This document shows positions 1 to 37,457 of a stretch of 64,000 bases of DNA, piece after piece (position 1 is the first letter of the stretch; the number at the start of each line of letters is the position of its first letter). The position numbers and the translations under genes were made by a program. The DNA lies in contig LODT01000006.1 in NCBI GenBank assembly GCA_001606155.1, positions 124,001-188,000 of the forward strand. The letters are read 5' to 3'. This DNA comes from Tieghemostelium lacteum (lineage: Eukaryota > Evosea > Eumycetozoa > Dictyosteliales > Raperosteliaceae). Below the pieces are notes generated by a model, which was not told the DNA's origin, did not search any database, and worked only from the letters and a program-made list of their open reading frames with translations.

Positions 1-2925
1 CAATTGAAAGATGCCAATGACTCTATCCAAATCCTCAGAGATCAACATCAAAAAGAAATTGAAGAAATTCAACAACAACAAGATGGTAATGCCTCCAAAC
101 AACTTGAATCCAAAGACATCGAGATTATCACACTTAGGGAAAGACTACAACAATTGGAACAACAAATACAATCCAAAGACACACAGATTAAAGATCTAAC
201 TGAAAAGGAAATGTTACTGAATAATGAAATTACTCAAATTAAATCTCAGGATTGTAAAGAATGTATTCAACTAAAAGACTCCAATACCTCTCTTAGAAAA
301 GACAGAGAACTAATGGTAGCTTTGGAAGAGGAATTATCATTATTGAAATCAAAACAATGTGAGAAATGTCCTGATCTTAGTAACCAATTAGATGGTTCCA
401 ATATCATAATTGATGAATTAAAGACTAAAGTCCTTCAACAGTCTAATCAGTTATTACAGTTACAGTCTAATCTACAAGAGGAAATAGACCGTTTGAAAAA
501 CAAAGACTGTCAGCATTGTATTTCCAAAGACTCTACAATTGATGATATGAAATGTCAATTAAATGAAAAAGTAAATGAAATTAAAGGATTGGAGACTAAA
601 TATGAGGAAGGATCAGGTATATATATCTCTAAAATGCTTTCTTTGGAACAAAATCTCTTAGACCAAATCAATACCAATAATAGTTATCATAGTCAATTTA
701 AGCAATTGGAAGAGAAACTAAAAGAACAATCAGAAAAGAAGTGTAATGTTTGTGTGGATTTACAAAATCAGATAAAATCACTTTCTGATAAAGAGATGTT
801 ACAGGTAGAGAGAATAAAAGTACTAGAGTCACAACTAGAACAAGAATGCAAGTCATCAATAGACCTAAGAGAGCTGATTGAAATTCTAGAAAATAGATTG
901 AAACTAGAGTGTAAATCTTGTCTTGAACTAAAGAGACTAATAGAGGATCTAAAGAATAAAACTCAATTGGTAGAGTCACAGTTATTACAAGAGTCTACAT
1001 CTGCAAAGAGTTTAGCTGAAAATCTACAACTACAAACTCAAAAGACACAGGAACTAAACGATAGAGCTATGCATTTGGAATCTAAACTCCAAGAAGAATG
1101 TACATCATGTCATAGTCTACAGGAACATTTAAATAGAGAATGTATATCATGTGTAGACTATAAACAACAAATTCAAGTTTTACATGATAAATTAAATCTA
1201 GAGTGCCAGTCTGGTATACAATTGAAAAATCAATTGAATGGGTTAAATAAGGATATTGAAATTCAGAAACAATCTGAAAAAGAAAAACTCACAAATCTAG
1301 AGAATGAACTACAAATTGCACAAAAGAAACAAACTGAGCATCAGTGTGGTAATTTCCCAGTTCCAGATTATGAATTAAAGTTACTTCGATTTATTGGAAC
1401 TTTAATCAACTTGGATTTAGTGAATTTGGAATGTAGAGAATGTTCAATGAAATCTCTAAGAGATGGTATAAGTCTAAGTCAATTGGTTAATCACTATTTC
1501 TCAGAGTCTATTGACCCAAGAGCTCTACACAAACAATGTAATGAAAAACAAGATTATATAGATAACATCTCACTGGTTATCAATTCAATTAAGGTATTGG
1601 AAACTAGTGTTTGTACCAGTTTTCAGGTATTGGATATTGTAGATTGCAAAGGGACAGAAATTTTCAAATTATGTTTTGAAATTGTCTACAATGGTCTATT
1701 GAATCAGTTTAACCTACAGACTCATCCAGAGTTATCATACTTTTGGAAACATAATCCAGAGGCATTGGAACACACAACCACTGAGAAATGGGAGAATTTT
1801 ATGGTACTAGAACCACCATATCTTTTACGTCGTTGGGTTAATCATTTCCTTAAACAAAACAATCAATCATTGGTACAAAACTTTAATAAGGATTTTAAAG
1901 ATTTCCGTGTTATCCATTGGCTGTTAACTATATTAACTGACTATAAAATCACTGACATTCAACCAGATTCCATTATGGAATATTGTAAAAACACATTGAA
2001 TATTGGTCAGTTGACAACCAAAGATGATATTGAATTTGGAAATGAACAAAAGACTCAAGTTATCCTATCACAGTTATTCATTATTCGTAGTGGTTTAGAT
2101 AGATTAATTAGTTCACATCAAGCACCACCAATGACTAATATATCACCAAGACAAAATCTACAAAGAATGGGTAGTGCCAACAGTCTATTAAAACTATCTA
2201 ATGAAGAGATTCAAAAAGAAATTATAGCACCATCATCTGAAGAGAAAGCTTGTAAAGTTTGGTTGAAATCCATTGATGTAAATATTAGTAATCTCGATGA
2301 TTTTAGAGATGGTATATTACTACTTAAGGCATTAGACAAAGTATCTAATGCCAGTGTTAATTGGAAGACTGTTACAATGAATCCAAGTAACACATTCCAA
2401 ATGACTGAAAACTGCAATTATGCCGTTAAAATTGGTAAAGAGTTAAAATTCTCTTTGGTTGGTATAGCAGGTAAGGACTTTGTAGATTGTAACAAAAAGT
2501 TTTTATTGTCATTTGTATGGCAGATGATGAGACTTTATGTATTACACAGAATAAGCTTACAATCACAGTCTAATCAAGAAAAAGAGTTTACTGAGAATGA
2601 TCTGATTAGAAAACTAAATCAAATACTATCACAACAAAATAAGAGTAGTTCTATAAAATCATTTAGTGATCCTTCACTTTCCAATGGTGTAACTCTACTG
2701 GATCTTCTAGATGCCATCAAACCTGGTAGTATTGACTATCAAGAGGTGAAATATGACGATTCACCAGACTCCAAGAAATCAAATACCAAATACGTTATCT
2801 CGGTTTCTAGACGTCTAGGATGTTCTGCAATCATCTTTGTGGAGGATATTATCGAAGTTAAATCCAATATGATTCTAAATTTTGTCTGTGATCTAATGAC
2901 AGTAACAAAAGTATTAGATTCTTAA
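1..2925 (+). CDS. Coiled-coil protein with four C-terminal CH domains (fimbrin/plastin-like), 5' end outside window
   Basis: The frame is open to the left edge, so the start lies outside and at least 974 residues are present. Residues about 1-440 are a long Gln/Glu/Lys/Leu-rich coiled coil carrying repeated CxxC pairs (C84/87, C119/122, C169/172, C247/250, C303/306, C366/369, C380/383). From about 450 there are four calponin-homology-like segments starting near 452, 595, 746 and 862. The third, EEKACKVWLKSI with DGILLLKALD, resembles fimbrin CH3, and the fourth holds NGVTLLDLLDAIKPGSIDY. Fimbrins bundle actin with four tandem CH domains, so an actin-binding role is inferred; the coiled-coil extension is not usual for fimbrin and would make it an oligomer. 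The EF hands of true fimbrin are not seen. An AATAAA follows the stop within 10 bases. Confidence 0.8.
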   Translation, partial: QLKDANDSIQILRDQHQKEIEEIQQQQDGNASKQLESKDIEIITLRERLQQLEQQIQSKDTQIKDLTEKEMLLNNEITQIKSQDCKECIQLKDSNTSLRKDRELMVALEEELSLLKSKQCEKCPDLSNQLDGSNIIIDELKTKVLQQSNQLLQLQSNLQEEIDRLKNKDCQHCISKDSTIDDMKCQLNEKVNEIKGLETKYEEGSGIYISKMLSLEQNLLDQINTNNSYHSQFKQLEEKLKEQSEKKCNVCVDLQNQIKSLSDKEMLQVERIKVLESQLEQECKSSIDLRELIEILENRLKLECKSCLELKRLIEDLKNKTQLVESQLLQESTSAKSLAENLQLQTQKTQELNDRAMHLESKLQEECTSCHSLQEHLNRECISCVDYKQQIQVLHDKLNLECQSGIQLKNQLNGLNKDIEIQKQSEKEKLTNLENELQIAQKKQTEHQCGNFPVPDYELKLLRFIGTLINLDLVNLECRECSMKSLRDGISLSQLVNHYFSESIDPRALHKQCNEKQDYIDNISLVINSIKVLETSVCTSFQVLDIVDCKGTEIFKLCFEIVYNGLLNQFNLQTHPELSYFWKHNPEALEHTTTEKWENFMVLEPPYLLRRWVNHFLKQNNQSLVQNFNKDFKDFRVIHWLLTILTDYKITDIQPDSIMEYCKNTLNIGQLTTKDDIEFGNEQKTQVILSQLFIIRSGLDRLISSHQAPPMTNISPRQNLQRMGSANSLLKLSNEEIQKEIIAPSSEEKACKVWLKSIDVNISNLDDFRDGILLLKALDKVSNASVNWKTVTMNPSNTFQMTENCNYAVKIGKELKFSLVGIAGKDFVDCNKKFLLSFVWQMMRLYVLHRISLQSQSNQEKEFTENDLIRKLNQILSQQNKSSSIKSFSDPSLSNGVTLLDLLDAIKPGSIDYQEVKYDDSPDSKKSNTKYVISVSRRLGCSAIIFVEDIIEVKSNMILNFVCDLMTVTKVLDS

Positions 2926-3064
2926 ACATAGTAATAAAAAAATATAATATAGCTTCTTATGTATTTATATTTCTAATCTCTTTACTTGAAAAAGAGAGTG
3001 TGTAGTATTTACATTATATCTTTAATTTATTATTTTTGTATTTTATCACTGTATTATTTTTCTA

Positions 3065-5497
3065 TTATTTGAGAGAAGGGAATTCAATAGTTGATTCAAT
3101 ATTTTTATGTTGGTGAATAGCATCAAGAACACTTGAGAACTTATTTGGAGGTGGATTTTTTTGATTTGCTTGTTGATGTTTGAGTTGAGACTGTTGTTGC
3201 TTGAGTTCTTCTTCTTCTTTTTTCTCTTGTTCTAGTCTAACTCTCTCCAATTCAAGTTTCTTTTGTTTCTCTTGTTCATTAATCTCACGTAATTCATTAG
3301 ATCTTTTAATATCAATAAATCTTTCCTTTTCTTTTACTCTTAGTTTTCTTTGTTCCTGACGTTTCTTATTTGTTCTGTGGCTATTTCTCGATTGTAATTC
3401 ATGAGCAAAATGATCCAAAGTCTCTTTGGATACCAAACCACTCATATCAATTTCAATAAATGTTATTGGAGTAGTAAGTGGAATCACAGTCAATGACTTA
3501 TATTGATTTCTTAGTGATTTTGTAAGTTCAAAGGTTTCCAACTCCAATATTTTTGAGGATATATTACCTGGTAGGAGTATTTCACCATTTACATCTCCTT
3601 TTGATAAATATTCTCTGGATAGAATTTTCATACATAGTGGATGTAGAAATATATCCTGACCATCACTTGATTGATAGATATAAAAATTACCATCATATGG
3701 TTGATTTTCATATTCAAATGATTCTTTGGTCTTATTATTATTATTGATAATGGGTTTATGAGGTAGTGATTCTAAAATTGGTTCTAATGTAGATGTTGAC
3801 GTTGTAGATGTAGTAGTTGTTGTAGCAGTTGGAATATTACTATAACTATCAAAAGTGTCATTATTATCATCTGAAAATTGACTATCTGGTGAATTTACAT
3901 AATGACTATCATAAAAGTCCTCTAATGCCATTCTAATTTCTAAATTATTACTATATTGGAAAGAATCAAATTTCATTTGTTTACTCTTTGGAACTGTGGT
4001 TACTATATAATTATCTTGTGGAGTTCTAGATTCAATTAATTTTTGAAATGCCAATCTTCTCTCTTGAATCTCTTTGGATGCAACATTTAGGAATTTTAAA
4101 GTTTGACCCTCATGTTCAGAAGTTGCAATTTCTATAGCAACATCAATCTCCTGTTGCTCTTTTGCTAGTATTGGTTCAATAGATGAGATAACAGAAAATC
4201 TAGAATACAGTGAATTGGAATCGTCTACAGTTGGGAAAGATACCTTACTAGGCTGTGACTGTGTAGATATATAAGGTACTGTTGATCCTTCAGAATATCT
4301 AATCAAACTCAACTGAATATCATCAGACTCCTCAAACTTCTTTACCTGTACAATTTTAATACTCTTTAAATCCTCTTTGGTTATTGGTTTTAAACACAGT
4401 GGACATTTATCTGTATGTGATAGATTTCTTAAAATGCATCCCCAACATGCTACATGACCACATTTTGTAATTTTTCTAAATATTAAGTATTAGTATGATA
4501 TGAGTAAATAAAAAATACAACACATACGGTGCATATGGAGGATCAAAGCAAATAGGACATTGAAATTCATTAGGTTGATTTAATAAATAAATAGCTTGTT
4601 CGATTTTATTCCAGGAAACTAGTGTATCAGGATCTAGATAATATATTAATAAGGGTTTATGATAAAATATTAATATCAAAATGCTTATTCATTTCTCCTT
4701 TATAAATATTTAGAATCATAAAATCTTACTAGATAAACTATTTCCATAATTTCCATATGGATTAATATAAAATGAATATCTTTATAAAGGTGGTGTAATA
4801 TGTTAATACATAAATTAATTAAATCTATTTGCATTAATATTTACTTTGCTTGTAAAAATGTTACTTCTTTTATAATGGATTGCTTTTGTTTATCTCTACT
4901 TCTATTTAACTGGTTACTATGATGTTTTTTATTATTATTATTGTTATTATTGTTTTGGTGATTGAAATTTCTCTTATTTGGATAATTATTAGGTCCATTG
5001 CTACCACCACCCCCACCTCCAGTATTGTATTGGTATTTTGGAGGTTCTTTGTGTCCACTAAAATTAATTAAATGTGTTACGTCTATCTGATTTTTTTTTT
5101 TATTTGGTGTAGAGGATGTAGTGGTAGTAGTTGTAGTACCACCAGGACTCGTAGATAGATTACTACCACTATTTTTTAATTTTTCAGTTTCATATTCTAC
5201 TTTACTGATTTCAATAGCTAATTGAATCTCATCATTCAATTGCTGTTGTTCTTTATGTGGTGGTTGTAAATTATTTACATATACCTGTTTATATTTTTTA
5301 TTTCCACGATAATGATTACCACCACCGCTACCTTTATTACTATTGTTGTTGTTGTTCTTATTCATTGTTAATTTATTGGTATCTGTAAGAGTATTGTTGT
5401 TGTTTGTAGTGATAGTAGAAGGAATCATTGTAGGCCTTGAATTTAATTTATGTCGATCATTATTTAAAGTTAAAGGAGAAGAGTTACAATTTTGCAT
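3065..5497 (-). CDS. RNF10-like RING finger E3 ubiquitin ligase, four exons
   Basis: Proposed exons on the minus strand are 5497-4845, 4779-4730, 4633-4528 and 4475-3065; the phases agree and give about 739 residues. The N-terminal exon is poly-Asn/Gly-rich and ends in a VTHLINFSG and FLQAK segment like RNF10. The small exons encode FYINPYGNYGN and NPDTLVSWNKIEQ, matching the DPDTLVNW region of RNF10. The RING is split by an intron: CPICFDPPYAP, then KITKCGHVACWGCILR and DKCPLC (C3HC4). The last exon has a Lys/Arg/Glu-rich helix and a Phe/Ser/Leu C-terminus. RNF10 ubiquitinates 40S ribosomal proteins in stalled-ribosome quality control; that role is inferred from family. The 5' start is uncertain: a donor-like AAG/GTAGGT lies upstream near 5560, so a 5' leader exon is possible. 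Confidence 0.85.
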
Positions 5498-5503
5498 ATA
5501 CAA

Positions 5504-5904
5504 TTAAAAAAAAATTAAATTAAATTAAAAAAAAAAAAAAAAATTTAAAATAACCTACCTTGAGGTTTTTGGTTCAAAGGAGATTCTTTTAAATTTGTCA
5601 AACCCAATTATGTATAATATTGTTGTTGTATGGAGGTGATTGTTTAAGTCTAAGCAATCTTTAGGAAAATGATGTAAAAAAAAAAAATAATTAAGTTTTG
5701 ATGTTTTCCTTGGTTTTTCTTATAATGAAAAGTAATTTCAAATGTGTAAATGTGAACGTTATGATGGAGGAATATTTGGAGGGGAGAAATAGAACTGTAA
5801 TTCCACAAAGTGTGTGTAAGTTTGTGGAGTGTGTTTATTCTAGTTTTAACATATTAAATTATATATAAAAAGACATTATTTTTTTGGGAGAGTGAGATTA
5901 AGAT
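5504..5904. other. Intergenic spacer between two minus-strand genes
   Basis: This 400-base stretch is the upstream region of the RNF10-like gene and the downstream region of the CHTOP-like gene. It is A/T-rich with an A-run near 5525-5545. It holds a 9-base-pair hairpin at 5638-5659 with a four-base loop and one G.U pair. No open frame of weight was found. Confidence 0.5.
5638..5659. repeat. Short inverted repeat (hairpin)
   Basis: GATTGTTTA and TAAGCAATC flank the four bases AGTC. The arms pair along 9 positions with one wobble. It lies upstream of the RNF10-like gene and may fall in its leader; function is unknown and chance occurrence is possible. Confidence 0.4.
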
Positions 5905-8114: not shown

Positions 8115-9572
8115 TTAGGAAGTTGGAACTGGAGGACTATCTGGAATTTCCATATCTAAAATCTTTTGCTTGTTATTTTTAATTTTTAGTGATTTAAAGT
8201 CTTGATTGGTTTTCTCGGCTAGATAACGTGCAATTTCTTCATTACCATAGTGACAGGCCAAGTTGAGAGGTGTTCTTCCTTTATTATTCTTTTCAGTCAG
8301 ATCAGCATTGTATTTCAACAGTAGTTCGAGTACTTTAAAATGGTTCCAAAACACAGCCAAATGCAATGGAGTCGAACCATTAATATTCTTTTTGTTGATA
8401 TCAATCTTCTTCTTTAACAACAACTCGATAATCTCTAATCTAGGTTCCTCAGTACTGATCAAAATGTGAATTGGAGCATAACCCTTGATTTCAGAATTTT
8501 GAGAATTCAAGTCAATGTTAGTCTCATCCACCAGAAATCTTGTAATGTCGTCATTCTCATTATAGCATGCAATGTGGATAGGTTTCCATCCATTAAGCTT
8601 CGACAGACTTGGATCGGCTTTATATTTTTTAATAAGCATCTTAACAAGCTCCAAGTGACCTGAGCTACAGGAATGGAACAAAGCTGTGGTACCTTGATTA
8701 TTCTGACGATTAACATCGGCATGATGTTGGGAAATCAAAAGCTCAGCCATCTTAACATGTCCCTCAGCACAAGCGGCATGTAAAGGTGTCCATCCCTCAA
8801 GATTCTGAGCATCGACCTGAGCTCCCTTACCTAATAGGCTCAGCGCTGTTTCCATATTCCCTTTGTAAGCGGCTGAGTACAATGGTGTCCAACCATCAAG
8901 TCTTTGATGATCCACACGTGCGCCAGAGTTAGCAAGACTTTCCACAATATTCGCATAGTTTTCTTCAGCGGCTACATGTAAAGATGAAGCTCCATCTTGG
9001 TTTACAGCATTGACATCCGACCCAGCCTCCAAGAGTTTATCCACAAGTTTCTTGTGTCCCCTTAGTGTGGCGTAATGTAAAGCGGTATTTCCCTTATTAT
9101 TCGAAGAATTTACATTGGCACCGTGTTGAATGAGAATATCTACAATTTTTTCATCACCCTTTACCGATACCATCATAATAGGTGTTGATCCGTCCTTGTT
9201 GACTGCATTAACATCACAACGACCTTGTTCCAAAAGTACTTTAATCAGAGGTAGAGAAGCTTGTAAAACTGCTAAATGCAATGCAGTATTGGAGTCTTGA
9301 TCAACTCCATTCTGACATGTGATATCATCTCTCTCCAAAAGATATTTACAAATTTCCAAATGTTGACCTACTACCGCCAAATGTAATACATTCTTACCAA
9401 ATCCAAAACTACTATTTACATCAACTTTTGGATTCTTTTGTGACAAAATCTCTTTCAACAAATCTAAGTTTGCATCTTTAATAGATTGTTCTAATGACTG
9501 TATAGTATATACAGGTTTAACTGGTGTTTGTGGTTGTACATGTACAGATACAGGTTGTTGTTGTACTACTGG

Positions 9573-9645
<73 letters not shown>

Positions 9646-10568
9646 ACTAATGGTGATTGAGTTTGTGAAATTGAATTTGTACGTTGATGATTTATAGGTT
9701 GTGCTTGTGAAATTACTGAGGTTGAAGTGGTTGTGGTTGTTGGTTTAGTTAAAATGGCAGGATTTACAGGTTTGTTGACTTGTACAGAAGAGTTTATGGG
9801 TGAGCTTGGAAGTGTTGGTTTATTGAATTGTTGTTGATTATTGAATTTAAAAGATGGAGATGACTGTGGTGATTGTGTGGTTGAATTTAAGTTTTTAGGT
9901 TGTGGTGATGTAAAAATATTTCTATTAGAGAGATTTGAATAGGATTTATTAGCACCATTGTTGTTTGGTGATGATATATGATTACTGTTACTGTTACTAT
10001 TACTATTATTTATAAATGAATTGTCCCATTCCATTACTGGGTTATAACTAGTAGATGGTACAAAAGTGATTAGAGCCTCATCAGTAGGGTCATCAATAAG
10101 AGGCCATTTGACAGGAAACCCTTTTGCACATGCTATAGTTGCCATACAGTTAATGGTAGTTATAACCTTTTGAATATTCTTATTATCCCATAAATCAGTG
10201 GCTATGAATACCTGGTTTTCATTGATACCCATTTTTTTAGGTACCACCAAAAACGAGTTGATATTCTCAAGGAGTTTAAATGTTACTGATCCTGCTTTAT
10301 TGATTCGAGGTATGATACCTGGAAACATGACATTGGCGAGTTTACACAGTGCTACACCGTCTTTAAGTGCAGTGTGAATGTCTCTGTCTAATGACTCGTT
10401 AATCACTGATTCCACCCATTTCTTGCATTCCATTTGTCTGGCTTGCATTTCATAGGTTTGAAAATCAGACATGGTAATGGTAACAGATCCTGATGATATT
10501 TTTTTACCACCTGTTGGTCTGAATGGTCTGCTTCCACTACCACTAATACCTAAACTGTTGGTACTCAT
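8115..10568 (-). CDS. Calponin-homology domain plus ankyrin-repeat protein
   Basis: An uninterrupted 817-residue frame starting at the ATG at 10568. Residues about 40-145 are a single calponin-type CH domain (CKKWVESVINESL, ALKDGVALCKLANVMFPG, SFLVVPKKMGINENQVF). A Ser/Asn/Thr-rich linker follows, with a pure poly-Gln tract near residues 308-335. From about 360 to 795 there are roughly twelve ankyrin repeats with the usual TPLHxAxxxGHxxxVxxLLxxGAxVN pattern. A type of single CH domain seen in calponin and transgelin regulates or decorates actin; the ankyrin stack is a protein-binding surface. A cytoskeletal scaffold is inferred. The joining of the two domains is unusual outside amoebae, but I cannot say it is unique. 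Confidence 0.9.
9572..9646 (-). repeat. CAA trinucleotide tract coding poly-Gln
   Basis: A nearly uninterrupted run of (CAA)n on the minus strand (TTG/GTT on plus) coding about 25-28 Gln inside the CH-ankyrin protein. Such tracts are common in dictyostelid proteins and vary in length between strains. Confidence 0.9.
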
Positions 10569-31591: not shown

Positions 31592-34500
31592 ATGGACAAT
31601 ACTGAAACAAAAGCTACAAGTACTACCACCACTGACATTCCACATGTAGAGGAAATGGACAATGATGAAGTAGTAAATGGTAACGGTACTGATACTACCA
31701 CCACACATGAAGAACCTGAACAACGTAGGTTTCTATAATTTTGAAATATCCAAAACATTGGTATAGATAGATCATATCATTAATCATCTCATCATTTTCC
31801 CCTTCAAAAAAAAAAATTGAAAATACACCTTTACTATTTAATATTGCAGAGGTTTCATTTTCACTGTTGATAAAGACACCAGTTGAGATTGGAACTATTC
31901 AAATTCAGGTTACACCTGCAGATACAGTATATGATATTCAAACATTTTTGAATGAAACCACAGAGACTTGTTTATACTCTAGTTATGCATTACACTATAA
32001 AAATGAGAAATTAAACGATTTTATGGAATTATCATCGATTCCAGATCTCACTGATGGATCAGTCTTGGAAATGTTACCTGTTGAATACAATGAAAGAACT
32101 GCTAGATTGCATGTTAAACGTCTTAGAGATATTCTCAATACTGGTATGCTATTGGACAATCAAAATCAATCTACAAACCCATCACTATTCTCTAGTTATT
32201 CATATCCAGAGAAAACTCAACAACCATTAACTGAAGAGAAACTACAACAACAATTTGAAGAAGAACAACAAAAGAAATCTAAAAGTGGTGGAAATCCCCC
32301 AAGTCAGAAAAAAACTAAAAATTCTGCAGTTTCAAAAAAACAGCAAGCTCTTCAAGAGGAAAATGAGAGAAAAGAGGAGATTACAGGTATTTCTCAATAT
32401 GAGAAACCATTACTCTCCAACTATTTCCCAAAACAGACAGCTACTAATATTCAATGTCTCAAGTCAATGATATTCTCTGGATGGTCACCAGTACCAGGTT
32501 ACAGAAAACTTCAAGGCGACTTGTTCTACCTCGATTGCACACTTCTCGAGGGACAAACCATTAACATTACAGCCAATGTCCGTGGATTCTTTGTCAACCA
32601 GACTACACTCTCCAATTTCAATCCATCACCTTCCGCCAACAAACTTCTTCACAGCCACTGTCTACATCAAGTACTCCAACAAGTTTCCAGACAATTCAAA
32701 TCTGGTTTATCAAAGGTTTTACATCACATTTCAACTCGTCACCCATACGAAATGCTTCCAGGTGCCATTCCACTCAACCAATGGATCTCAAGAACCAAAG
32801 TCCAACCTCAATACGATATCAACAAATCCCAAGACAGTGTCTTACTCGTACCTGACACTGACCTTCGTAGTCAACCCCGTGACTGGAACGAAGAACTCCA
32901 AGGTATTCGTGAACTCCCCAAACAAACCTTCCAAGAACGTATCATCAGAGACCGTGCATTCGCCAAAGTTCACGCTGATTTTGTTGAAGTTGCTGTAAAA
33001 GGCGCTCAAGCTGTAATCAGTAAAAGTATCCTACCTATAAACCCACTGGATAACGAGAGATCCCATATGTACCTCTACCACAATATCTTCTTTTCCTATG
33101 CCCTTGATACCCGTGACCTCTTCACCCATTGTGGAGGTGACAAAGCCGCAAGAGCCTCCGCCAACAATGACCTTAAAGGCATCCGTTTGTATAACCTTGC
33201 TGATGTAGATGGTCTACATACCGTCGGAACTTGTATCATTGATTACTGTGGTCAACGTATCATTGCTCAGACCTTGGTACCTGGTATTTTATCCAACGAA
33301 TCTACTAGTAATGTTTTATACGGTTCAATGGATAATGGAAAGTGTATTAAAGCAGACCCAGTATTCCATGAAAAACTTTCAAAAGCTGCAGCCATGTTAC
33401 ATCTCTCTGAAAGACCTGTCATCTCTGAACCTTCACAAACTGAAGAATCTCAACAAGAGTCTACTGAAACCACCAAAGAAGCTGAACAACCTCAAATTGT
33501 CAACCTCTGTACCAGTGTTGATTCTAAAGGTATCATTGGTATCGATGGTAGACATTACATTCTAGATCTTGTAAGAGCCACTCCAAGAGATCCAAACTAT
33601 CCAGACCAAAAGAACCAAATGTGTATCCTCAGACCTGAATTAGTAGCAACCTTTGCTGAATACATTAAAGACACCTGGTTAAGTAAAAAAATTCAAGAAA
33701 ATCGTGAAAAGAGAGCTAAGGCCAAAAAAGAAAAAGAACAACAACAACAACAACAATCTGGTGAATCTAAAGAACAAGAACAACAACAACAAGAAGAAGA
33801 AGATGATGAAGATAATATTGTTATTGATGAAAATGATAAACCACCTCATATTTCATTTAATCCAAATTTATATGGAAATGTGAAATTGGGAGGAAGTGAA
33901 GAGGAACAACAGAAGGATATGGAATCTTTGAATAGTGTTGGTGTCTTTTTGAAAAATATTATTATTCCAAAGTTAATTGAAGATTTGATAATGTTCAGTG
34001 CAGTACCAATTGACGGTCAAAATCTTACAAATATCATGCATGTTAGGGGTATTAATATGCGTTATTTGGGATACTTGGCAAAGAATGAAGCTGCTTCTAA
34101 GGTACCTTTTATCCAGGATATTTGCTTTAATGAGATGGTTTCTCGTGCTGCTAAACATCTCTTTAATGAGCAAATCCATGCTGGAGATCAGAGTGAACTC
34201 GCTGTGGTTTCTGCTCACTTTTTGAATTGTTTGTTGGGTACTACTACAGGTCAAGTCACAGCTGAAGACATTCAGAAACATCTTAGAATCAGTAACAAGA
34301 AGAAAGCTGCTGCTTTAAGTGCACTTACTCAAACATCTCTATGGGAGCAAATTGCCTTGTTGATTAAGGAGAAATACGACTTTGAGATTACAACTCACTC
34401 TGTTCCTATGGAGAGTCGTTTGATTGTTCTCAGATCACTTTGTTTGAAAGTTGGTTTACAAGTTCATGTCAAGGACTACGATTTCACCACTGATTTCACA

Positions 34501-35670
34501 TTTTCATCAGAAGACATTCTCGAATTGCAATGTGTTGTCAAACATCTCAATCCAAGATCCAGTGACGGTTTGGATCTTCTAGAACATGGAAAAGTCTTAC
34601 TCAATCAGAGAAAATTCGATATTGCTAAAGATCTACTTAACGAGTCTCTAACTATCCTCATTCAAGTCCATGGTCCAATCTATGCAGATGTTGCAGCATG
34701 TTATATGAACCTCGCTATCGTTTCATTCCATAAAGAAGACATAGACATGGCTATAGAGTACCAAAAGAACTGTGTCATCGTTACTGAGAAAGTCCATGGA
34801 GTTGACCATCATGATACTATTCATGCTTACAATAACCTAGCTGTATTCTGTCAGAGAGCTGGAAGATTAAATGAGTCTATGGGATACTTTAAACACGCAT
34901 TATATCTAACTGATCTCCTAGGTGGTGACTATAACCCTGAAAGAGCTTCAACTTATATCTCCATAGGCTACCTCTTACAGGAACTTGGTAACCATGAACT
35001 TGGTATTCATTACCTTCGTCTAGCACTCAAACATCAAGAAGCCATCGTCGGAACCGACCACATAATCTCCGCAGCTACTTACCATCACATTGCCATCAGT
35101 TTCCTACATTTGAAAGACTTTAAAGAAGCCATTGCAAATGAGAAACAAGCATTCCACATTTTAGAGAGAGAGTTGGGTCCTGATCATTTCCGTACAAAGG
35201 AATCCAATACCTTACTAACTCAACTAACTCAAACTGCAGTTCAGATTCAAAAGATGGCAATTGAACAAAACAAAATGCAACAACAAATGCAACAACAACA
35301 ACAAGCTGCCAAGAAACTTTCACAAAAGTTATCGAATCCAACTAATGTAGTTCCTTTGAAAAAAGAAGAACTTGAAAGATTAACAACTGGTCCTGTTAAT
35401 GACATTTTGAAATATATTAATAGTGCAACTAAACCAACTTTAAATAATAACAATAATAATAATAGTAATAATAATAACAATATTCACACTACAACTAATA
35501 GTAGTGGTATTAGACCAAAGATTCAATTAAAGAAATCAACAATTAAACCAAATATACCCTCAACTATTCCAGCTACTACAAATACTACTACCACTACCAC
35601 TACTACAACTACAACTTCCACAAATAATGTTTCTCAAAAATCAAAACCAAAATCAAAATCTTCTAAATAA
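31592..35670 (+). CDS. cluA: Clustered mitochondria protein CluA
   Basis: Exon 1 (31592-31724) and exon 2 (31850-35670) join across GTAGGT...TTGCAG to 1,317 residues, close to the 1,320 of D. discoideum CluA. In order: an acidic Thr-rich head, the CLU-N ubiquitin-like region (ALHYKNEKLNDFMELSSI), the GSKG-like and CLU central domains (from about 380; PINPLDNERSHMYLYHNIFFSYA), eIF3p135-like region, and a TPR block about 980-1150 (IYADVAACYMNLAIVSF, DTIHAYNNLAVFCQRAGR). Tails are poly-Gln, poly-Asn and Thr-rich. CluA/CLUH binds mRNAs for mitochondrial proteins and keeps mitochondria dispersed. Codons from about 32,500 to 33,250 are far richer in C at the third position than the gene's ends. Confidence 0.97.
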
Positions 35671-35820: not shown

Positions 35821-37457
35821 ATGTCATTAGCAAACACTTCATCAAGTGCAAATGAAGATGATATTTGGAGTCAAATTCTAAAAGAATCTTCAAATAAAAC
35901 CAACTATTTTGAAAAGAAACATGTTGTAATGTTAGGTGATCCAAATGCTGGTAAATCACTTTTACTCTCAAAGTTTCAACCTATATCTGATGTTGAATCT
36001 CTAAAGAGTATTGCATTAAGTTACACATTTACTGATATATTTGAAGATGATACAAGTGAAGGTAAATTTTGAAATATTAGACTTCAATATATAGTAGAGA
36101 TTTTAAGGTTACTAATTATATATATATCCAACAAATCCAAATAGATCCAATTGGTAGAATAAACTTTTGGTCTTTAGAAGGAGAGACAGCACATAATGAT
36201 TTATTAAAATTTGCATTAAATCACGAAAATATAAAGAATTGTATGATAATGATAACATTGGATTTCTCACAACCATGGAGTTTAGTTGATTCACTAAAGA
36301 AATGGTTAAACATATTGGAAGATCATATAAAATCAATATTTAAAGATAATAGTATTGGATTTAAGGATCTTCAAGATAAATTGTTAATCAAGTGGCATGA
36401 ATATGTTGAACCTGTTGCTGCTGTAACTACTAGCGATGCTACTAGTACTGCATCTACAACTACCACAACATCTGTACAAAAAAAGAAATTCAGAAAAGTC
36501 AATGCTACGCCTATTGAAGATACCAGTGTACTTCCACCATTAGGTGAAAATATCCTTACTCATAATCTAGGTGTACCTATCCTCATTGTCTGTTGTAAAT
36601 CAGATTCTGTTGTAATGTTAGAAAAAGATTTTGATTACAAAGATGATCTATTTGATTACATTCAACAATATCTCAGAAGAATAAGTTTACAATGTAATGT
36701 ATAGTTTATCTACTTTTAATTGATTTGATATATAAACTAACTTCAAACTTGATTATTTATAGATGGTGCAGGTTTAATTTATACATCAGCTAGAAAAGAA
36801 ATTAATTGTGATGTTGCTTTAGAGTATTTAGAAAATATGTTATTTGGATTTGAGTTGAAATCAAAGACTCAATTGATTGAAAAGGATCAGATATTTGTAC
36901 CTTCAGGTTGGGATACTTATGGAAAGATTACATTGGACTTTGAAAATCAAAAAGTTTGTAAAGATGCTCAAGAACTATACGAAAATGTGGTAAAGAAACC
37001 AAGTAGCATCAAGAGAAGAGAAATGAATCAACAGACTACTATAACAGCAGATGAAGATCAAGAATTTCTTCAAAAACTAAAGTCTAGTATGGAGAATGAA
37101 GGTGAAGATATGTCTTCAAAATTAGATCAACCCTCACTAGATGATAAGAATAAATTTGATAGCGCCAATAGTAGTAATATGAATAATAACAATAATAGTA
37201 GTAGCACTGGACAAACTAGTACCACTTCACCAACTAATTCACTGCGTACCAGTACTGGTGTTGGTTCAACTCAAAATCCTGAAAAGGCTGCATTAGCAAA
37301 CTTCTTCAATTCACTAATTTCCAAAGAAAAAACATCAAGAACTTCACTATCTTCTACATCCCTGGGTACTTCAACTTCTTCCTCTTCCACCAATGCCAGA
37401 TTAGATGCACAAAAAGAATTAGAAAAACTAAAACAACAACCACAGCCCAAAAAGTAA
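35821..37457 (+). CDS. Cytoplasmic dynein light intermediate chain
   Basis: Three exons: 35821-36061, 36145-36693 and 36763-37457, giving 494 residues (human DYNC1LI about 490-520). The P-loop LGDPNAGKSLLLSKF is near residue 40, followed by IWSQILKESS upstream and FWSLEGE as switch-like sequence. Then SLVDSLKKWLNILEDHI, and after the second intron YGAGLIYTSARKEIN and VPSGWDTYGKI, both matching the DLIC Ras-like domain. The C-terminal 200 residues are a disordered Ser/Thr-rich region with NPEKAALANFFNSLISKE, corresponding to the DLIC effector helix (PEKAxxxNFFNSLLxK) that binds activating adaptors. DLIC joins dynein to cargo adaptors. Confidence 0.93.

Follow-up and report, generated by a model that had tools for sequence, protein, structure and literature searches.

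A fimbrin-like protein of Tieghemostelium lacteum with a putative CC1 box and a CxxC-bearing coiled coil, a candidate dynein-to-actin adaptor

The four-CH proteins fimC and fimD of Dictyostelium discoideum have been reported as HAP1_N-like hits of TRAK1 and Milton (PMC5064798; this and the other articles are cited for those portions of their text that were available), and the FimC protein accumulates at the mound and/or culmination stage (PMC12821622). The present analysis concerns a fimbrin-like gene at the left edge of a 64,000-nucleotide stretch of Tieghemostelium lacteum DNA, referred to as the window (contig LODT01000006.1; C4:124001-188000 of the 23.3-Mb genome). Its product resembles FimC (fimbrin-3) and FimD (fimbrin-4) in its four CH domains and its HAP1_N-like sequence, as judged by the published description and not by sequence. 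That a fimbrin core can be joined to HAP1_N-like sequence was already known from fimC and fimD (PMC5064798). An earlier note on the window, made from the sequence alone, knew of no fimbrin with such an N-terminal extension; this statement falls with the two D. discoideum proteins, whose extension is not described as such in the available text.

In dynein adaptors, the CC1 box, defined by the pattern AAxxG, is the motif that binds the dynein light intermediate chain (LIC) (PMC9481740). The fimbrin-like protein is similar to the CC1-box adaptors BICD2, BICDR1, TRAK/HAP1 and Spindly in that it carries AAxxG in its first coil, a long coil and a module at the far C terminus, and differs from them in that this module is a fimbrin core, in its shorter coil 1 and in the absence of the Spindly motif from the usual place. 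Nesprin-2G likewise unites an actin-binding CH region and a putative CC1 box in one protein, but its CH region is N-terminal, it contains spectrin repeats and a KASH anchor, its dynein binding is BicD2-dependent and its motif order is atypical (PMC11310688). In D. discoideum, the microtubule array loses its cortical anchorages when dynein is interfered with, and cortical dynein pulling has been suggested as a main driver of spindle elongation; the words adaptor and adapter do not occur in the available part of this review (PMC7140473).

Judged from its sequence, the fimbrin-like protein is a candidate dynein-to-actin adaptor and, as such, worth attention: a protein of the FimC/FimD kind, presumably orthologous to these two, that would act as a dynein adaptor with F-actin as its cargo (estimated probability, about 0.6). 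This reading, which combines a CC1 box with an LIC helix, was not found in the literature searched, whose coverage was partial, with most subscription papers lying outside it. Among the matches listed, no paper joined Dictyostelium and the CC1 box, and the literature on dynein activating adaptors with CH, actin-binding or CC1 box consisted of nesprin or KASH reviews. Of the papers that came nearest to uniting these subjects, PMC5064798 alone mentions fimbrin, and the matches listed for fimC and fimD dealt mostly with bacterial fimbriae. An LIC-binding motif and a fimbrin core in one protein would represent a direct, testable candidate for a link between dynein and the cortex and, if the reading is true, an amoebozoan member would be added to the CC1-box adaptors.

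Domain layout of the gene and its paralogue

The window part of the gene, which the earlier note had seen, represents its last two thirds. Completed upstream, the gene is predicted to encode 1468 residues, and window residue 1 is residue 495 of the protein. The predicted order is coil 1 with the CC1 box LAAEIGRVLLEKN, a linker, coil 2, which is long, and a CH core of the fimbrin type that lacks EF hands. Positions in the locus that includes the upstream DNA are prefixed L005 (L005:6001 is window position 1); all others refer to the window.

L005:4449-5003, exon 1, with the ATG at L005:4449; carries the CC1 box
L005:4881-4895, AAEIG of the CC1 box, 1.1 kb upstream of the window
L005:5004-5073, predicted intron, 70 bases, GT-AG, placed by eye
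L005:5074-8925, exon 2; its window part, 1..2925 (+), encodes coil 2 and the CH core and ends with TAA
1..1338 (+), in-window part of coil 2 by heptad scoring (window residues 1-446; the coil starts about 54 residues further upstream)
1381..1680 (+), CH1, PF00307, 35.9 bits
1780..2110 (+), CH2, diverged, without a Pfam match, approximate limits set by eye from an alignment with the genome's own fimbrin
2242..2538 (+), CH3, PF00307, 54.6 bits
2593..2907 (+), CH4, PF00307, 60.1 bits

The predicted intron is supported because the equivalent stretch of a paralogue (see below) is read through in one exon. The fimbrin CH core proposed by the earlier note was confirmed: the four CH domains of a fimbrin/plastin are present, three by Pfam and CH2 by alignment only, and the top three PDB rows of the core were fimbrin, fimbrin-like and plastin-3 (E 2.2e-61 to 4.2e-50). 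The CH2 region is spanned by the phmmer stretches of 1pxy and 7r94. EF hands gave no match in window 1-2922 (E <= 0.1) or in the N-terminal pieces (E <= 1); EF-hand-like loops are visible by eye in the genome's own fimbrin. Compared with fimbrin/plastin, the CH core is alike, whereas about 935 additional N-terminal residues are present, CH2 has diverged and EF hands were not found. The nearest matches to the core within the genome were a paralogue on contig C26 (41%) and a canonical fimbrin on contig C18 (40%); each match covers the second half of the core.

The C26 paralogue (locus L012; 1920 residues predicted) has a CC1 box, a coil 1, a linker, a longer coil 2 and a CH core, with one Pfam CH domain in the exon 2 piece and two in exon 3. 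In blastp, the two proteins matched with 2e-61 over coil 2 and the CH core and with 4e-9 over the N-terminal part, both E-values being inflated by the coils because no low-complexity filter was applied. The third CH domain encoded by exon 3 of the paralogue weakly matches the hook-domain profiles of NuMA and HOOK (17.6 and 14.5 bits, under cut-off).

Coils 1 and 2 are separated by a predicted non-coil linker, which comprises residues ~316-440 of the fimbrin-like protein and ~545-665 of the paralogue and is weakly conserved in their alignment. The linker of the fimbrin-like protein, the one scanned, gave no Pfam match over cut-off. It may represent a small globular region or one that faces dynactin.

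The CC1 box and a possible link from dynein to actin

Exon 1 matched Pfam HAP1_N with 39 bits (cut-off 33.9) over LAAEIGRVLLEKN, which carries AAxxG at residue 145 (residue 352 in the paralogue), the sole AAxxG in each protein. When the whole genome was searched in six frames with HAP1_N, two places appeared at E <= 10, of which only exon 1 exceeded the cut-off; the other scored 15.1 bits. When the CC1 region was compared with the PDB, all four rows at E <= 10 were BICDR1 chains (best 0.0092), and with a two-sequence profile BICDR1 ranked first of 22 rows (0.0044). Ungapped scoring with a BICDR1 35-mer over the open frames of the retrieved loci (including L025 and L026) gave 79 for the box of the fimbrin-like protein (15/35 identical) and 70 for that of the paralogue (12/35). 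The next best place scored 31, inside the paralogue, and the best outside both genes 29; the maxima in 3000 shuffles of each coil 1 were 47 and 48. The box residues common to both paralogues are E-K-E-x-D, AAEIG, LL, K-N and D-L-E; identity over all 341 aligned columns of the two is 26%.

The presumed partner of the box is encoded on the same contig, ~33 kb downstream of the fimbrin-like gene, a closeness that may be coincidence:

~35821-37457 (+), LIC gene with several exons, PF05783 over cut-off
37293..37328 (+), LIC adaptor-binding helix 1, LANFFNSLISKE, matching the LIC1 peptide in the PDB; presumed partner of the CC1 box

In 10 of 12 positions, LANFFNSLISKE is identical to LANFFNSLLSKK of the LIC1 peptide in 6b9h/6pse/6psd (E 0.03 and 0.042). 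LIC helix 1 is essential for the binding of SPDL1, BICD2, HOOK3, TRAK1 and others, via its phenylalanines and leucines (PMC6336354).

From these elements, we infer the following arrangement. Coil 1 would form a parallel dimer whose CC1 box takes up LIC helix 1, coil 2 (~500 residues, ~75 nm if helical) would serve as a long spacer, and the C-terminal fimbrin core would bind actin filaments, so that dynein would be linked with the actin cortex or with structures made of actin. Activation of dynein would be expected of an adaptor of this kind; alternatively, LIC may be bound without full dynein activation.

Several observations weigh against the adaptor reading. With the N-terminal 492 residues as query, HAP1_N reached only 21 bits, and the paralogue 25.5 bits, both under cut-off. 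The six-frame genome search with HAP1_N omitted the paralogue and was thus not exhaustive. Weak HAP1_N matches under cut-off also appeared in four of 14 prokaryote control genomes, as coils do, with none over cut-off. The remaining 18 of the 22 rows obtained with the two-sequence profile were regulatory subunits of PI3K (17) and ZapB (1), all at E >= 0.06, and in the PDB search with the paralogue a spectrin chain ranked over BICDR1 (0.023 versus 0.041; best single spectrin stretch, 8.1). The PDB search that matched the LIC1 peptide also gave three viral spike rows (0.058, close to the LIC rows, 2.2 and 8.4), which were taken as chance. An AlphaFold model of the CH core, made without alignment, was poor, with a mean pLDDT of 33, and was set aside. 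Finally, PMC5064798 takes the HAP1_N resemblance of fimC and fimD as coiled-coil interaction, and the terms CC1, BICD and light intermediate are absent from its main text.

The architecture of coil 1 adds to these points. A pattern scan of both proteins did not detect the Spindly motif L-Theta-X-E-Theta at the usual adaptor position: the single match in the fimbrin-like protein is the CC1 box itself (2.0 expected by shuffling), and none of the five matches in the paralogue (2.4 expected) lies between residues 352 and 950. Beyond the box, coil 1 extends for ~160 residues in the fimbrin-like protein and ~193 in the paralogue, an estimated ~24-29 nm at 0.15 nm per residue (the coil end of the paralogue was set by eye, its heptads being unscored), and heptad scoring predicts a gap in coil 1 of the fimbrin-like protein at residues 215-232. 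By comparison, the first coil measures 35-39 nm in BICD2, HOOK and TRAK1, and ~20 nm in JIP3 and RILP, in which the Spindly motif is not obvious (PMC9481740). The lacking motif and the short coil 1 thus weaken the adaptor reading without excluding it, because JIP3 and RILP are similar in both respects.

The same data bear on a simpler explanation, in which the protein is a plain actin cross-linker whose fimbrin core is dimerised by a long coil and the HAP1_N match reflects coiled-coil composition rather than LIC binding. The strong fimbrin core would suit this role, as would the absence of the Spindly motif from its usual place and the fact that two of the three HAP1_N scores are under cut-off; moreover, myosin II, kif4, rad50, smc1 and others were HAP1_N-like beside fimC and fimD, as composition alone would yield (PMC5064798). 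Composition would not account well for a box that is kept in both paralogues despite 26% overall identity, nor for a BICDR1 match far above shuffles and all other scanned open frames, and LIC helix 1 is retained in the genome; a cross-linker is held to be rather unlikely. It appears very improbable that the protein is an adaptor of the Milton/TRAK type, in which HAP1_N would serve mainly for kinesin-1 and actin would be the anchor. HAP1_N is the domain of the TRAK/Milton family, and TRAK1, TRAK2 and Milton bind kinesin-1 via the HAP1_N region (PMC5064798), but BICDR1 is the closest relative among the solved structures that matched, and a search of the Dictyostelium proteome for a Milt/TRAK domain found none (PMC5064798). 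A dynein adaptor with F-actin as cargo is the reading we prefer. Its boldest extension is a long shot: a dictyostelid family of direct dynein-to-F-actin adaptors, with spacers that can exceed 75 nm, would provide the missing cortical dynein anchor, the spacer of the Cys-rich member being stiffened or regulated by interchain zinc or redox staples.

A further gene with four CH hits lies on contig C18 (L023, C18:38501-46500, positions 1382-5620, - strand); it is a multi-exon gene with an E/R/Q-rich stretch and weak similarity (30%) to the fimbrin-like core. A CC1 box was not seen in it by eye. It was rejected as a third CC1-box fimbrin, since AAxxG-LL was not found by eye and the gene was absent from the CC1 search and from the top 12 places of the BICDR1 scan.

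The CxxC pairs of coil 2

The earlier note had drawn attention to at least seven CxxC pairs and several degenerate copies in coil 2, held in heptad register along one face. The count was confirmed, with seven intact pairs at the residue numbers of the earlier note plus one and three degenerate copies, two of them with one Cys each (283 and 402) and one without Cys (332). In window residues and window coordinates, these are:

253..264 (+), CxxC 85, CKEC; heptad b/e by both sides
358..369 (+), CxxC 120, CEKC; at a register shift
508..519 (+), CxxC 170, CQHC; at a register shift
742..753 (+), CxxC 248, CNVC; at a register shift by heptad scoring, smaller by local phase
847..858 (+), decayed copy 283, CKSS; e position
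910..921 (+), CxxC 304, CKSC; e/a
994..1005 (+), decayed copy 332, STSA; same register, Cys-free
1099..1110 (+), CxxC 367, CTSC; e/a
1141..1152 (+), CxxC 381, CISC; e/a
1204..1215 (+), decayed copy 402, CQSG; e position (heptad scoring at 2/3 penalties)

An eighth CxxC, at 478, lies within CH1, and coil 1 of the fimbrin-like protein contains no Cys. When the 446 coil residues were shuffled with their 17 Cys retained, the mean number of pairs was 0.61, and seven were reached in none of 20000 shuffles, either free or within heptad columns. The gaps between intact pairs are 35, 50, 78, 56, 63 and 14. The claim that the spacing is mainly a multiple of seven holds for four of these six gaps (P = 0.004 in 200000 random placements) and does not extend to a common register, as the largest modulo-7 class contained four of the seven pairs, which is not significant (P = 0.07).

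The heptad positions differ along the coil. Between residues 260 and 446, classes 2 and 6 contain 28 of the 51 L/I/V/M, and classes 3 and 6 (e and a) the eight Cys; between residues 1 and 150, classes 0 and 3 contain 20 of the 39 L/I/V/M, and classes 1 and 4 (b and e) the four Cys. Within block B (283-402), the first Cys is at e, the second at a and the E preceding the first at d. Referred to the phase of the upstream coil, the first Cys of pairs 85, 120 and 170 is +132 to +143 degrees, and the second +81 to +92 degrees, away from the core, corresponding to b/e. With the downstream coil, 85 is unchanged, and the ranges for 120, 170 and 248 become +49 to +68 and -2 to +16 degrees. The two-sided phase is 114/63, 89/38 and 88/36 degrees for 120, 170 and 248 and ranges from +58 to +107 and from +7 to +56 degrees for the six copies of block B. 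The amplitudes of these local phases are weak (0.05-0.19) and carry no significance value. Heptad scoring concurs for 85, 283, 304, 367 and 381 at 3/3 penalties and for 402 at 2/3; its placement of 120 and 170 depends on the penalties, both being non-coil at 2/3. A single face common to all pairs along the whole coil was rejected, the N-terminal pairs being b/e by the upstream coil and the C-terminal ones e/a; the proposal of the earlier note stands for block B and fails for 85, 120 and 170 as placed by the upstream coil. By the downstream coil alone, the reading kindest to it, most sites would pass as e/a, with 85 as the clear exception.

The pairs represent a real repeat that is probably specific to the gene or lineage. 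Copies of block B are alike outside the Cys columns (mean pair score 28.2, versus -0.07, SD 4.4, for segments of the same register), as are those of block A (21.3 versus -12.1, SD 5.3, in a less strict control with segments taken from any register). Scores as high were reached in 0/4000 in each of three tests, of which the block-B control alone preserved the register. The expanded repeat with a CxxC core that the earlier note had proposed was thus recovered: because their likeness outside the Cys columns exceeds that of random segments, the CxxC segments look like diverged internal repeats, and the pairs would be part of an old, diverged repeat of coil 2. At the DNA level, repeats are nearly lost, a scan of window 700-1350 yielding one 22-nt direct pair of 82%; a recent tandem duplication is unsupported by this single pair. 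A genome-wide family of CxxC coils was likewise rejected, since a 183-residue query containing CxxC pairs returned no sequence but its own at E <= 0.01 (five candidates scored). The literature search on CxxC coils found no paper that combines most of these features.

The layout is common to both genes and the Cys pairs are not, because the coils of the paralogue are Cys-free: it contains eight Cys in all, none of them in its 211 + 730 coil residues, and no CxxC. The earlier note had tied its proposal to the retention of the pairs in relatives, and this paralogue, the only relative with that layout to be detected, goes against it in part. Coil 2 of the paralogue has a Cys-free internal repeat of its own (KDxEISKLxxxxxEKD, by eye), apparently an independent expansion.

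Whatever the role of the whole protein, be it adaptor, cross-linker or kinesin partner, the pairs might form a functional ladder that binds metal between strands or makes interchain disulfides. Seven pairs against 0.6 expected speak for such a core, as does block B, whose e/a pairs beside a polar d would allow two chains to present four thiols. Both coils of the paralogue are Cys-free, however, one or both Cys are gone in three of ten copies, and 85, 120 and 170 are at b/e by the upstream coil; we regard the ladder as unlikely. The cytosol is reducing, and interchain disulfides are unlikely for this reason. A long coil with a single CxxC at its hairpin apex is known from the Rad50 zinc hook; the fimbrin-like protein shares the CxxC in a long coil, but here the motif forms a series along the coil and not one apex site. 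The alternative to a ladder, that the Cys pairs are carried along neutrally by a coil built of internal repeats, comes close to an even chance without quite reaching it. The repeats are alike beyond the Cys columns, copies are decaying, the paralogue expanded another, Cys-free unit and the DNA-level repeats of window 700-1350 are almost lost; against this, Cys is retained in seven of ten copies despite the diverged DNA, which is a hint of some constraint. In block B, where a pair of chains might bring four thiols together, a local zinc or disulfide staple, with any metal bound there, would be possible; the domain layout would be independent of such a staple. Because of its Cys pairs, coil 2 is a naturally occurring coil with thiol sites at intervals, which can be compared with the Cys-free paralogue.

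Neighbouring genes

Three further genes were noted in the window:

3065-4489 (-), RING-finger gene (PF13923, 28.1 bits versus 27), its 3' end facing that of the fimbrin-like gene
8115-10568 (-), CH-domain gene of 817 aa, with one N-terminal CH and long ankyrin repeats
32023-35670 (+), homologue of CLU (clustered mitochondria), directly upstream of the LIC gene

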